From NCBI RefSeq assembly GCF_013378075.1, contig NZ_CP051131.1, positions 124,001 to 188,000 of the forward strand: DNA of 64,000 nt, written 5' to 3'. This document shows, in pieces, positions 3,514-64,000 of the stretch; the stretch's first letter is position 1, and each line of letters starts with the position of its first letter. This DNA comes from Parasphingopyxis algicola (lineage in GTDB: Bacteria > Pseudomonadota > Alphaproteobacteria > Sphingomonadales > Sphingomonadaceae). Below the pieces are notes generated by a model that had not been told where the DNA came from, made no database searches, and worked only from the letters and a program-made list of their open reading frames with translations. The translations under genes were made by a program, and so were the position numbers.

Positions 3514-3603
3514 GTCATTGCGAGCGAAGCGAAGCAATCCAGAGCTTCGGGCATGGACGTTTGCAGTTCTGGATTGCCGCGGGCCTTCGGCCTTCGCAAT
3601 GAC
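3514..3603. repeat. REP-like interspersed inverted repeat, copy 1
   Basis: Nested inverted repeat: outer arms GTCATTGCG (3514-3522) and CGCAATGAC (3595-3603), inner arms GCAATCCAGA (3534-3543) and TCTGGATTGC (3568-3577). A second copy with the same arms and a different middle lies at 12741-12840. Both are in intergenic space after a plus-strand gene. This arrangement is typical of dispersed palindromic elements common in alphaproteobacterial genomes. Confidence 0.85.
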
Positions 3604-3679: not shown

Positions 3680-6007
3680 CTACGCCTCGGGTTCGGGCGC
3701 CTTTTTCTTCTTCTTTTTCGGCGGCTTGCGCTTGGGCGGCGCCGGCGTGAGCTGGAAGTCGAGCGCGTCGTCCTTCACCGTCACATCCACTTCGCCGCCA
3801 TTGACCAGCTTGCCGAACAGCAGCTCCTCGGCGAGCGGCTGCTTGACCTTCTCCTGGATCAGCCGGCCCATCGGGCGCGCGCCATAGAGCTTGTCGTAGC
3901 CGCGCTCGGTGAGCCAGGTCTTCGCCTCGTCGTCGAGCTTGATATGCACTTCGCGGTCGGCGAGCTGCAGTTCGAGCTCGAGGATGAACTTGTCGACGAC
4001 GCGCGCGACCACGGCCGGCGGCAGATAGCCGAACGGCACGATCGCATCGAGGCGGTTGCGGAACTCGGGGGTGAACATCTTCTTCACCGCTTCCTCGCTC
4101 GCATCCTCTTTCGAGATATCGCCGAAGCCGATGCCCTCGCTCGCCATGTCGGCGGCGCCCGCATTGGTCGTCATGATCAGGATGACGTTGCGGAAATCGA
4201 CCGTCTTGCCGTGATGATCGGTGAGCTTGCCGTTATCCATGACCTGCAAGAGCACGTTAAAGAGGTCCGGATGCGCTTTCTCGATCTCGTCGAGCAGCAG
4301 CACGCAATGCGGATGCTGGTCGACGGCATCGGTCAAGAGGCCGCCCTGATCGTAACCGACATAGCCCGGAGGTGCGCCGATGAGACGGCTCACGCTGTGC
4401 CGCTCCATATACTCGCTCATGTCGAACCGTTCGAGCGGAATGCCCATGATCGAGGAGAGCTGGCGCGCGACCTCGGTCTTGCCGACGCCGGTCGGGCCGG
4501 TGAACAGATAGTTGCCGATCGGCTTGTGCGGTTCGCGCAGGCCCGCGCGACTCAGCTTGATCGCGGACGACAGCGTCTCGATCGCCAGATCCTGGCCGAA
4601 CACGACGCGTTTCAGGTCCGTGTCCAGCGATTCCAGCGCCTGTTTGTCGTCGCTCGAAACCTGCTTCGGCGGGATCCGCGCCATCATCGAGATCACATTC
4701 TCGATCTCGTTCGGCGTGATCATCTTGCGGCGCTTGGACGGCGCGACGAGCATCTGGCTCGCGCCGGTCTCGTCGATTACGTCGATCGCCTTGTCGGGCA
4801 GCTTGCGGTCGTTGATGTAGCGCGACGAGAGCTCCACCGCCGCCTTGATTGCATCCGCCGTATATTTGACGTTGTGATGCTCTTCGTAATGCGGCCGCAG
4901 GCCCTGGAGGATCTTGATCGTATCCTCGACCGTCGGCTCGTTGATATCGATCTTCTGGAAGCGCCGGAGCAGGGCCCGGTCCTTCTCGAAATGGTTGCGA
5001 AACTCTTTGTACGTCGTCGAGCCGATGCAGCGGATCGCGCCGCTGGAGAGCGCCGGTTTCAACAGGTTCGACGCATCCATCGCGCCGCCCGAGGTCGCAC
5101 CCGCTCCGATGACCGTGTGAATCTCGTCGATGAAGAGGATCGCATCGGGCTTCTTCTCGAGTTCGGAGACGACCGCTTTCAGCCGCTCCTCGAAATCGCC
5201 GCGATAGCGCGTCCCGGCGAGCAGCGCGCCCATATCGAGCGCATAGATCACGGCGGGCTTCAGCACGTCCGGCACGTCCTCCTCGACGATCCGCCGGGCC
5301 AGACCTTCGGCGATGGCCGTCTTGCCGACGCCGGGTTCGCCGACATAGAGCGGATTGTTCTTCGAACGGCGGCAGAGGATCTGCACGGTCCGGTCGACCT
5401 CGACGCTACGGCCGATCAGCGGGTCGATCTTCCCGGCCTCGGCTTTCTCGTTCAGGTTGACGCAGAATTGCTTGAGCGCGCTCTCGCTCTTCTTCTTGCC
5501 GGCCGTCTTCTGTTCGGGCTGTTCTTCCTCGTCGGTACCGCTGATTTCGCGGCTGTCGCTGATCGCTTCGCCCTTGCCGACCCCATGCGAGATATAGCTG
5601 ACCGCATCGAGGCGGCTCATATCCTGCTGCTGGAGGAAATATACGGCATAGCTTTCGCGCTCGGAGAAAAGGGCGACCAGCACATTGGCGCCGGTTACCT
5701 CGTCGCGGCCCGAGGATTGCACATGGAGGATCGCGCGCTGGACGACACGCTGGAAACCGCTGGTCGGCGAGGGGTCGGTCGTGCCGTCGATGCGCAGCGC
5801 CTCGAGCTCGTTATCGAGATAGACGGCGACCGCTTCCTGCAGTTCGGAAATCTCGACGCCGCAGGCCGTCATCACCTGCGCGGCGTGATCGTCGTCGGTC
5901 AGGGCGAGCAGCAGATGTTCGAGCGTTGCATATTCGTGCTTGCGGTTCGCGGCCTCCGCGAGCGCGTTATGCAGCGTCTGTTCCAGTTCACGAGCAAAAG
6001 AGGGCAT
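3680..6007 (-). CDS. clpA: ATP-dependent Clp protease ATP-binding subunit ClpA
   Basis: A 775-residue Hsp100 unfoldase that feeds substrates to ClpP. Two Clp_N repeats (about 1-145), first AAA+ module with Walker A GEPGVGKT (223-230) and DEIH (294-297), second module with Walker A GPTGVGKT (504-511), then the ClpB-D2 small domain. Length and two modules without a middle coiled coil mark ClpA rather than ClpB. Odd: the last 20 residues are Pro/Lys-rich with six consecutive lysines. ATG 6007 has an AGGAG SD. The adaptor gene clpS, which often precedes clpA, is not next to it; a DUF1192 gene is. Confidence 0.96.
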   Translation of the reverse strand: MPSFARELEQTLHNALAEAANRKHEYATLEHLLLALTDDDHAAQVMTACGVEISELQEAVAVYLDNELEALRIDGTTDPSPTSGFQRVVQRAILHVQSSGRDEVTGANVLVALFSERESYAVYFLQQQDMSRLDAVSYISHGVGKGEAISDSREISGTDEEEQPEQKTAGKKKSESALKQFCVNLNEKAEAGKIDPLIGRSVEVDRTVQILCRRSKNNPLYVGEPGVGKTAIAEGLARRIVEEDVPDVLKPAVIYALDMGALLAGTRYRGDFEERLKAVVSELEKKPDAILFIDEIHTVIGAGATSGGAMDASNLLKPALSSGAIRCIGSTTYKEFRNHFEKDRALLRRFQKIDINEPTVEDTIKILQGLRPHYEEHHNVKYTADAIKAAVELSSRYINDRKLPDKAIDVIDETGASQMLVAPSKRRKMITPNEIENVISMMARIPPKQVSSDDKQALESLDTDLKRVVFGQDLAIETLSSAIKLSRAGLREPHKPIGNYLFTGPTGVGKTEVARQLSSIMGIPLERFDMSEYMERHSVSRLIGAPPGYVGYDQGGLLTDAVDQHPHCVLLLDEIEKAHPDLFNVLLQVMDNGKLTDHHGKTVDFRNVILIMTTNAGAADMASEGIGFGDISKEDASEEAVKKMFTPEFRNRLDAIVPFGYLPPAVVARVVDKFILELELQLADREVHIKLDDEAKTWLTERGYDKLYGARPMGRLIQEKVKQPLAEELLFGKLVNGGEVDVTVKDDALDFQLTPAPPKRKPPKKKKKKAPEPEA

Positions 6008-60895: not shown

Positions 60896-61240
60896 TCAGG
60901 TCAGGTTTGAGCGGGCTTGGGCTGTGAGCTCCTGTTTGAACTGATCGAGCTTCGCCTGTTTTTCTTTCAAGCGCTTGGCCTTCTCGTCGAGATGCCTTTT
61001 CTTCTCCTCGAGCCGTACACGCCGCTGCTCGAGTTTGAGGCGCTTTTCCTCCAGATGATGGCTTTTCCGATCAAGCTGCTGGGCCCTTTTTTCCTGCCGC
61101 CTGTGCTGCGTATCAAGCTGGTCCCTGCGCGTTTCCAATTGCTGATGCATGTTTTCGAGCCGCTTGCGAATGCGCTCTTCGACGACTTCGGAGCCTTCGA
61201 GCATCCGTCTTCTCGACACCCATTTGCTGAAGATGTTCAC
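60896..61240 (-). CDS. Charged coiled-coil protein coupled to purB
   Basis: A 114-residue protein. After MNIFSKWVSRRRMLEG it is one long coiled coil to residue about 105, rich in E, K, R, Q with heptad-like spacing of leucines (LEEKRLKLEQRRVRLEEKK). No family recognised. Starts with GTG 61240, overlapping the purB stop (GTGA), with AGGTG SD inside purB. GGTGAAC occurs twice in tandem at the junction, which gives two possible start sites. Function unknown. Confidence 0.7.
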   Translation of the reverse strand: MNIFSKWVSRRRMLEGSEVVEERIRKRLENMHQQLETRRDQLDTQHRRQEKRAQQLDRKSHHLEEKRLKLEQRRVRLEEKKRHLDEKAKRLKEKQAKLDQFKQELTAQARSNLT

Positions 61241-62684: not shown

Positions 62685-64000
62685 TCAGGCGGCTTTCAGT
62701 ATCGGCGGCTGCACTTCGACCTCGATATCGGCCGGCAACGGAGGCTCGGCCCGAATGCCGTTGCGGATCGCCGTCAGCAGCGAAACCGGGTCGCAGCTGA
62801 AGCGGACGAGCTGCGTCATGCCGGTCTCGGCCGCCTTCTGGGCCGCGAACTCGAACGCCGTCACTTCGGCGAGATGCGGAACGTCGCCATGGCGTTCCGA
62901 GAAACGGGCGAAATTCCGGGCCTCGTCCGCCATGAACGGCTCGGGGCCGGTCTCCGCGAAATAGCGCAGCAGCAACGCGTCGAGCCCATCTTCGCCGAGC
63001 GACAGCCACAGATAGCGGGTCGTGAGCGGCAGCACATCGACGATACTGCCCCGCCGCGCCATCAGGATGAGGTCGACATAGATGTCGAACGCCGGATCGT
63101 CGTCAGGATGGGTCGGTTCGCCCCGGCAGCGCGCATCGATGCACCGCCGCAGATCGTCTTCCCATTCGGCCGGCGACGGATAGTCCGGCGGCGCCCGCAC
63201 ATCGATGGCTTCCGCCTCTTCGCCGACGGGCGAGGCCTGGCAATCGGCCGTCGGCGATTTCGCCGCGTACCAGATGGTTTGCAGCTGCCCGAGCAGATCG
63301 CGAATGTCCGCGACATCGATGTTCCGGGCATCGACATATTCCGGAATGATCTCGAAATTGATGGCCTTGAGGTTGGGAAGACCGGGCGCGGCGCGGCCGA
63401 GCAGTTCGATGACCTCCGGCTGCGGCAGGCCGCAATGCGAATCGAGCCAATAGCCGTTGTGATCCTGTCCGCCCGCGACATGGATTTCCCAGACATGATC
63501 GCGCGGCAATTGCGCGAGCACGGTTTCGGCATCGTCCCGCCCGTTGCGCTGGTTGCTCCAGATATTGTGCAGGTCGAGCAGGATCCCGCAATCGGCGCGG
63601 ACCGCGATCTCTCCCCAGAATGCGCCGTCCGGCATCTCGCCGGCGCGCGGCGCGAAATAGTTGACGCCGGTTTCGAACGCGAAGGGCAGGCCGAACAGGT
63701 CCTGCAACCGCTTGATGCGGTCGACGATCATCGCGACGCTTTCATGAGTTTGCGCCGGCGGCATCAGGAATCCCATGGCGCGCCGTTCATCCCCGTTGCC
63801 CGTCGACACGAAACTCGCATGGTCGCTCCACCAGGCGGGCTTCAGTATCGCCAGCGAGCGGCGCAGCGCATCGAGCTGGCGGTCGTCGAAACCGTTGGTC
63901 GAGGCGACCGGGCAGCCGACGCTGTGGACGAGCACCGACTTGCCGAGGTCGAGCAGCGAGGCGAACTTGGCTTCGTCGATCACGAACCGGCCTTCGCCCG
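62685..64000 (-). CDS. DUF692 (multinuclear non-heme iron oxidase, MbnB/TglH-like) protein with C-terminal partner-like domain, 5' end outside window
   Basis: At least 438 residues; the frame stays open to the window edge, so GTG 63983 need not be the start. The N-terminal part (about 1-265 of the visible sequence) is a DUF692 TIM-barrel: WWSDHASF, FETGVNYF, LLDLHNIWSNQRNG, WEIHVAGGQ, DSHCG and NFEIIPEY hold the expected iron ligands. DUF692 enzymes (MbnB, TglH, ChrH) oxidise cysteine or similar residues in ribosomal peptides. The C-terminal part (about 270-438; PLTTRYLWLSLGEDGL, FMADEARNFARF, VTAFEFAAQ) resembles HvfC/MbnC-type partner proteins, here apparently fused. No precursor peptide gene is visible on the window side. 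Confidence 0.8.
   Translation of the reverse strand, partial: GEGRFVIDEAKFASLLDLGKSVLVHSVGCPVASTNGFDDRQLDALRRSLAILKPAWWSDHASFVSTGNGDERRAMGFLMPPAQTHESVAMIVDRIKRLQDLFGLPFAFETGVNYFAPRAGEMPDGAFWGEIAVRADCGILLDLHNIWSNQRNGRDDAETVLAQLPRDHVWEIHVAGGQDHNGYWLDSHCGLPQPEVIELLGRAAPGLPNLKAINFEIIPEYVDARNIDVADIRDLLGQLQTIWYAAKSPTADCQASPVGEEAEAIDVRAPPDYPSPAEWEDDLRRCIDARCRGEPTHPDDDPAFDIYVDLILMARRGSIVDVLPLTTRYLWLSLGEDGLDALLLRYFAETGPEPFMADEARNFARFSERHGDVPHLAEVTAFEFAAQKAAETGMTQLVRFSCDPVSLLTAIRNGIRAEPPLPADIEVEVQPPILKAA

Follow-up and report, generated by a model that had tools for sequence, protein, structure and literature searches.

The two-gene locus

The window analysed here is a stretch of 64,000 nucleotides from the one-contig, 3.67 Mb genome of Parasphingopyxis algicola (G000:C1:124001-188000), and the subject of this text is a gene that crosses its end. 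A minus-strand frame (62685-63998) is open and extends beyond the window edge. In the contig, the gene occupies about G000:C1:188130 to 186685 of the minus strand (64130-62685 on the window numbering), i.e. about 130 bases past the window; its frame, with 481 codons open, reaches the 3' end of a small upstream gene. The encoded protein begins with a barrel of the multinuclear non-heme iron-dependent oxidative enzymes (MNIOs; DUF692), which is followed in the same chain by a linker, a helical domain resembling the partner proteins of such enzymes, and a short C-terminal remainder (Table 1; residues are counted from a putative CTG start). The initial annotation had suspected a precursor gene beyond position 64000, and a small Cys-containing minus-strand open reading frame (ORF) is indeed found there, directly upstream of the fused gene and outside the window. 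It has a good ribosome-binding site, encodes 75 residues with three Cys in the sequence CLACCSGW, and shows no evident signal peptide.

Table 1. Coordinates of the fused gene, its domains and iron ligands, and of the adjoining peptide gene
Feature	Position	Strand	Residues and basis
Fused MNIO-partner gene, in-window part	62685..64000	-	residues 45-481 + stop; open frame, PF05114 match, P. marina homologue
MNIO (DUF692) barrel	63267..64000	-	residues 45-288 of about 1-288; MAFFT alignment with 13 MNIOs, Foldseek of low-confidence P. marina model
Linker	63198..63266	-	residues 289-311; poorly conserved between the two species (alignment)
DUF2063-like helical partner (docking) domain	62823..63197	-	residues 312-436; profile matches, five predicted helices
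C-terminal remainder replacing full RRE (RiPP recognition element)	62685..62822	-	45 residues, predicted strand-helix-strand, + stop codon
Iron ligand H69	63924-63926	-	trimmed MAFFT alignment
Iron ligand H104	63819-63821	-	trimmed MAFFT alignment
Iron ligand E153	63672-63674	-	trimmed MAFFT alignment
Iron ligand D186	63573-63575	-	trimmed MAFFT alignment
Iron ligand N189	63564-63566	-	trimmed MAFFT alignment
Iron ligand H217	63480-63482	-	trimmed MAFFT alignment
Iron ligand D230	63441-63443	-	trimmed MAFFT alignment
Iron ligand H232	63435-63437	-	trimmed MAFFT alignment
Iron ligand E260	63351-63353	-	trimmed MAFFT alignment
Precursor-like peptide	G000:C1:188127-188354 (64127-64354 if window extended)	-	75 residues, C44-L-A-C47-C48

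A full-length homologue of the fused enzyme is encoded in Parasphingopyxis marina (G004), with 57% identity over residues 5-477 in the search and 55% in the alignment of the two enzymes, and a counterpart of the small ORF lies at the same position there (L006:1272-1499), overlapping the ATG of the enzyme. Within the core of the peptide (residues 17-69), 51/53 residues are identical, C44, C47 and C48 included, and 23 codons differ, 21 of them synonymously and two non-synonymously (dN 0.025, dS 1.17). The enzyme pair gives dN 0.38 and dS 0.79, its C-terminal part being less constrained than the barrel (dN 0.48 vs 0.32); dN/dS is about 0.02 for the precursor core and about 0.48 for the enzyme, all being Nei-Gojobori estimates from one species pair with a high dS. 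The peptide thus has the marks of a precursor, i.e. a small ORF with conserved Cys beside an MNIO gene that is kept as a protein, in two species only, and the codon pattern suggests that it is under purifying selection.

The precursor ORF overlaps the 5' end of the enzyme gene in both species, in P. algicola only if the start is the CTG that overlaps the precursor stop (TGA). The P. marina enzyme starts with an ATG within the 3' end of the precursor gene, whereas in P. algicola no in-frame ATG, GTG or TTG occurs between position 4226 of locus L003 (inside the precursor) and position 3983 (inside the barrel), which counts against an intact cassette. The CTG is the simplest start candidate, and the in-frame ATG inside the precursor (L003:4226) is the alternative. 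The GTG at 63983, where the initial annotation had let the gene begin, would remove a stretch conserved in P. marina (residues 1-49); an ACG near the site of the P. marina ATG lies in another reading frame. This start-codon situation leaves room for a decay of the cassette in this genome, in which case the start codon would have been lost and the enzyme would not be properly made, while our interpretation could still hold for P. marina. Such a decay appears improbable, as 481 codons are open with all nine ligands kept, as the dN/dS values of both genes suggest constraint since the species split, and as a CTG overlapping the TGA could serve by coupling.

The barrel and the C-terminal domain

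The N-terminal 288 residues match PF05114 with an E-value of 2.2e-38 and 132.4 bits (cut-off 25), which places them in the MNIO (DUF692) family, the match spanning profile positions 49-229 of 263 only. In 9/9 iron-ligand columns, both fused proteins have the residue that is found in 13 ordinary MNIOs. The ligand list comes from VcMbnB (PMC8888699) and was assigned by order and motif, VcMbnB itself not being in the alignment, which was trimmed of the C-terminal extension (the untrimmed version misplaced the last Glu). The barrel with its iron ligands in one frame, as initially annotated, is thereby confirmed. One column that is Glu in 13/13 other MNIOs is Gln in both fused proteins. As five NCBIfam equivalogs score far below their cut-offs (BufB 111/310, HvfB 89/360, ApyH 71/400, ChrH 32/600 and MbnB 17.7/325 bits), the barrel is a divergent member of the family. 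A sequence search of the PDB with the barrel gave TglH (8hci) as the nearest entry (E 8.6e-16), followed by 3bww (2.2e-09).

The C-terminal part comprises about 190 residues, of which about 125 resemble the helical half of a partner protein. In the P. algicola protein itself, it matches no Pfam family at E<=10, PF09836 (DUF2063) included, and no NCBIfam model. A profile of the two C-terminal parts from P. algicola and P. marina (A3) was searched blind against 385 genomes of the class. At E<=0.1 it had 28 non-self matches, and the output contained 19 non-self loci. PF09836 is present in 9/17 of the frames scanned with Pfam, two short broken ones (L055, L057) being left out. At E<=0.001 there are three non-self matches (L041-L043), each with the DUF2063 motif (L041 by Pfam, the other two by eye), and in L046 and L056 the DUF2063 gene lies directly 3' of the MNIO gene. 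The motif P-x-L-A-x-V/L-x-x-F/L-E-x-A is common to the C-terminal domain and DUF2063 partners. A profile-profile comparison (hhalign) of A3 with ten DUF2063 proteins (A5) gave an E-value of 6.3e-09 and a probability of 95.9, in a set that is circular because 9/10 of its rows were found with A3 itself; column shuffles gave 0.053 at best for A5 and 0.013 for A3 (40 each), and an MNIO alignment gave 0.24. The independent test is a set of twelve proteins adjoining MNIO genes that were not found with A3 (A8: this genome's own, ten from loci of the relatives search and one from a plasmid), and here the E-value is 2.2e-06 and the probability 89.2, with a best E-value of 0.024 in 100 column shuffles of A3. 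The profile-profile match covers residues 345-436. In the reverse direction, a hidden Markov model (HMM) of the twelve partners picks up the C-terminus of the P. marina protein (7e-05), which shares its frame with the barrel. These comparisons put the partner-likeness of the C-terminal part above chance, and its residues appear to be distant homologues of the DUF2063-like half of MNIO partners, i.e. the helical half used for docking. This homology is a claim about the two-species pair rather than about the window sequence by itself, because with plain HMMER the P. marina copy is significant and the copy of this genome is not.

Structure prediction points in the same direction. From two-row alignments, AlphaFold2 predicts that the C-terminal part of the protein from the window has five helices and then a strand-helix-strand, with an overall predicted local distance difference test (pLDDT) of 64 and values of about 65-85 over most of the 62685..62822 stretch; the model of the whole P. 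marina protein reached a pLDDT of 51, and only its barrel was used. The top Foldseek matches of the whole P. marina model are chain B of 8hci and of 8hi7 (E 2.0e-10, 3.1e-10), and those of the pLDDT-64 model of the C-terminal part are chain A of these two entries (E 0.017/0.078, probability 0.97/0.75). The barrel-matching chains were taken as TglH and chain A as TglI, because 8hci_D is named as a DUF692 protein and because the length of chain A (268-269) matches TglI. TglI extends to residue 269, and its RRE, the recognition element for ribosomally synthesized and post-translationally modified peptides (RiPPs), occupies residues 171-269, i.e. about 99 residues (PMC9016710). A full RRE of about 100 residues with three strands and three helices is not found here, as 45 residues follow the helical domain. 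The peptide-binding half of the partner is thus mostly missing, cut down to these 45 residues with a predicted strand-helix-strand. As regards a type 2 partner, i.e. one that is DUF2063-like by structure with no Pfam match (PMC12452194), the A8 profile match speaks in favour, and the fold match of a weak model is suggestive only. The initial annotation had read the C-terminal part as about 170 residues resembling an HvfC/MbnC partner. This reading is supported for the helical docking half of a partner, by profile comparison and weakly by fold (not by plain HMMER with this genome's copy), and not for a complete HvfC-like protein.

Could the C-terminal domain instead be the MNIO's own helical extension, like the bundle of the ChrH family, and be partner-free for that reason? 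The set of precursor and MNIO genes is as minimal here as in ChrH-family clusters. We regard this explanation as quite unlikely, because the C-terminal domain has significant profile matches to DUF2063 partners and carries their motif, because its roughly 190 residues are well above the 7.8 kDa of the ChrH bundle (a comparison by description only), because the NCBIfam ChrH model aligns to the barrel alone, and because the precursor has no CPxCGxG motif.

Distribution and genomic site

Fused enzymes of this kind turned up in only two Parasphingopyxis genomes in the searches made. Among 98 genomes of relatives, this one included, 44 match, and only P. algicola and P. marina do so over the full length; in a phylum sample of 398 genomes, 145 have a match, and none of the matches listed, apart from that of P. 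algicola itself, goes past column 333 of 492. On plasmids, 344 records match and none is covered to 80%. Viral contig scans with alignments A1, A2, A5 and A6 and a DNA motif gave no relative. A scan of genome contigs with A2, based on two short patterns only, gave P. marina alone; it is weak evidence on phyla other than the Pseudomonadota, which were otherwise reached through plasmids only. Of 79 examined loci with an MNIO frame, six are copies of this gene and three of the P. marina gene; the 70 others are in part interdependent, and some of them contributed to the partner HMM. A separate DUF2063-like frame accompanies the MNIO in 69/70 of these, the exception (L091) having an MNIO followed by an annotated 'putative DNA-binding domain-containing protein', and a fusion is present in 0/70. 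In none of them does the MNIO frame extend by more than 60 residues beyond the barrel, so that no divergent fusion was overlooked there. The MNIOs that are nearest by profile in the phylum sample (G1100 and G808; L061, L062) lie, by eye, in clusters with separate DUF2063-type partners.

The precursor is similarly restricted. It was found in 2/396 genomes of the order (P. algicola and P. marina). In the overlapping samples, the class (385 genomes) gave P. algicola and, with weak matches, one further genome, and the phylum (329) gave P. algicola only; no copy was found in the plasmid and phage collections. The weak class-level matches, in G513 (E 6e-05 and 2e-04, open frames of 516 and 247 residues), look like chance. 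Searched as a 104-residue frame, the precursor hit no Pfam or NCBIfam family and gave one chance-level PHROGs match (E 0.11), so in these three databases it appears to be of a type that matches no named family.

In P. algicola, the cassette is flanked by purB and by an alcohol dehydrogenase gene that comes after radC, and in P. marina by radC and purB (dehydrogenase by Pfam; radC and purB by eye). From eight other Parasphingopyxis genomes it is absent in the stretch seen before purB, and a full-length fused protein did not turn up in a search of their whole genomes; the cassette is therefore an accessory unit at one site. The genes radC, dehydrogenase and purB follow each other directly in L094, L095 and L099, another gene lies between the dehydrogenase end and purB in L092 and L093 and between radC and purB in L097, and contigs L096 and L098 start less than 1 kb from purB. 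The genes before purB in L092 (226-1239) and L093 (272-1312), on the opposite strand, are similar to each other, and the site may be a variable spot. Just after purB, the window holds a highly charged ORF of 114 residues (60896-61240, minus strand), probably a coiled coil. One copy of the pattern GTCATTGCGAGCGNAGCGAAGCAATCC is present in the window (3514-3540; expected 0.00 in shuffles); the pattern is also readable upstream of the precursor (L003, about 4723-4750) and may be an interspersed repeat.

An ordinary bufferin cluster with a DUF2282 precursor, BufB and a DUF2063 partner is present elsewhere in the genome (L004 7672-9598; G000:C1:1325671-1327597); a probable DoxX-type membrane protein, recognised by eye, is encoded after it. 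This cluster bears on the question whether the upstream peptide is a substrate at all, as the peptide could in principle be a small conserved protein with its own function (e.g. metal binding) while the enzyme acts elsewhere, perhaps on the bufferin. For a leader and core together, the conserved block of 53 residues is indeed long and constant, and no protease, exporter or metal gene was recognised by eye in the upstream stretch, not all of whose genes were family-scanned. We nevertheless hold this alternative to be unlikely: peptide and fused gene occur together in 2/2 genomes that have either in the searches made, small Cys-motif ORFs beside MNIO genes are the usual putative precursors (PMC12452194), and the bufferin cluster has its own BufB, which scores above the NCBIfam cut-off (351 vs 310 bits).

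A probable minimal cassette and its relation to known systems

Taken together, the locus is probably a minimal two-gene cassette of the RiPP type, consisting of a precursor with a CLACC motif and an MNIO barrel that is joined to a helical docking domain of the TglI/HvfC type. We infer that the enzyme acts on the adjoining peptide, that Cys is the target, and that no separate partner is needed. Mechanistically, the fused helical domain would pack on its own barrel as TglI does on TglH, the strand-helix-strand remainder or the barrel edge itself may pair with the conserved precursor leader (about R17-Q35), and a Cys of C44, C47 and C48 could coordinate iron of a tri- or di-iron centre and be oxidatively rearranged with O2. 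Metal handling as the function would fit the family. More tentatively, and with clearly less confidence, the enzyme may be a self-sufficient MNIO that has fused the docking domain of the partner and discarded its peptide-recognition domain, so that a new class of short cytosolic precursor would be selected and oxidised by one chain, the near-invariant 53-residue peptide being modified and used whole and not cleaved to a small natural product.

Several observations weigh against the two-gene cassette as proposed. Plain HMMER with A3 places only 4/12 of the A8 partners above the inclusion threshold, the best match being the BufC-type protein of this genome (8.9e-05 in a search of 12 sequences), and the HMM of the twelve partners is not significant on this genome's C-terminal part (i-E 0.51). 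In the blind search, 8/17 scanned frames are not DUF2063, some of them among the better matches (E 0.001-0.004), and a sequence search of the PDB with A3 found no chain. The fold evidence comes from weak models (pLDDT 51 and 64), the superposition on TglI is loose, with TM-scores by query length of 0.45/0.39 and root-mean-square deviations of 13.2/9.4 A, and 3dee (DUF2063, NGO1945) ranks only 17th for the C-terminal part (E 2.2). With the RRE half largely absent, leader binding lacks an explanation, and with two species only, the conservation rests on one pair. The lack of a usual start codon in P. algicola and of recognised protease, exporter or metal genes in the upstream stretch (by eye) also counts against it. 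That few single partners match by plain HMMER and that the TglI superposition is loose slightly reduces our confidence.

What distinguishes this cassette from known MNIO systems? The closest in fold is TglH-TglI of the 3-thiaglutamate pathway (PDB 8hci/8hi7), which gives the first fold match of each half, and the barrel shares with TglH the sequence D-L-H-N-I, where most other MNIOs examined have D-V/I-N-N. However, TglH and the RRE-bearing TglI are two proteins, whereas here there is one chain, and TglH acts on a C-terminal Cys that is added by TglB (PMC9016710), whereas the Cys residues of the precursor here are internal. No TglB-like ligase gene was noticed by eye in the stretch read around the cassette, the genome not having been searched for one. 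In the bufferin and oxazolin systems (BufB-BufC, HvfB-HvfC; DUF2063 proteins are PME-type 1 partners), the partner has a DUF2063 half that aligns with the C-terminal domain described here, but there the partner is a separate protein of about 250 residues with an RRE-type domain, the precursors have Sec signal peptides (PMC12452194), and the barrel described here scores far below the BufB and HvfB cut-offs.

The statement of the initial annotation that known systems use a separate partner was too strong. ChrH/DybH and MelH-MelHc of the ChrH family combine an MNIO with a C-terminal helical domain that is fused, like here, and elsewhere separate, the bundle being a separate protein in Cyanobacteriota; part of this family has minimal clusters of precursor and MNIO, again like here, and DybH is active without a partner, as is also said of MovX (PMC12636315). 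The ChrH-family bundle of 7.8 kDa is not called DUF2063-like in the accessible part of that paper, its precursor motif is CPxCGxG as compared with CLACCSGW, and by NCBIfam score as well as by the lack of CPxCGxG the cassette belongs to a different subfamily. Moreover, one protein with DUF692 followed by DUF2063 was already counted among 216 in Pfam by Das et al. 2009 (PMC2954202). It has the same domain order, but it is covered there in one sentence with no precursor or function in the text available, and the DUF2063 part described here is, unlike in that protein, too divergent for the Pfam model. Because of this protein and the fused bundle of the ChrH family, the novelty is limited, and the architecture is rare in the searches made but not without precedent. 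Among precursors, adjamnio-IV has a CxxCC motif and is listed in an 'Adjamnio-IV - MNIO' cluster without a partner, like here, but with 119-146 residues and 5-6 Cys it differs from a peptide of 75 residues with three Cys, and adjamnio-7 has no signal peptide and a CxxC motif (PMC12452194; both compared by description only). A 2025 survey of MNIOs names two partner types (1 and 2) and an MNIO-nitroreductase fusion (PMC12452194); an MNIO-partner fusion is not among the eight fusion mentions in its main text, supplement aside. PflD is an MNIO-nitroreductase (PMC12636437). This fusion is likewise not described in the accessible text of PMC13174530, PMC12710340, PMC12257519, PMC12141560, PMC13060819 and PMC9016710, supplements and most subscription papers lying outside the scope.

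Most reported MNIOs need a partner protein that is encoded beside them (PMC13060819). The study of these enzymes has been slowed because MbnB alone was insoluble (PMC12141560) and because TglH could not be expressed without TglI (PMC9016710). The cassette adds a type of precursor, with CLACC and no evident signal peptide, that appears unmatched to a named family, and a natural version with one chain and two genes would be an easy system for asking which portion of the partner catalysis requires and which portion the choice of the substrate requires.
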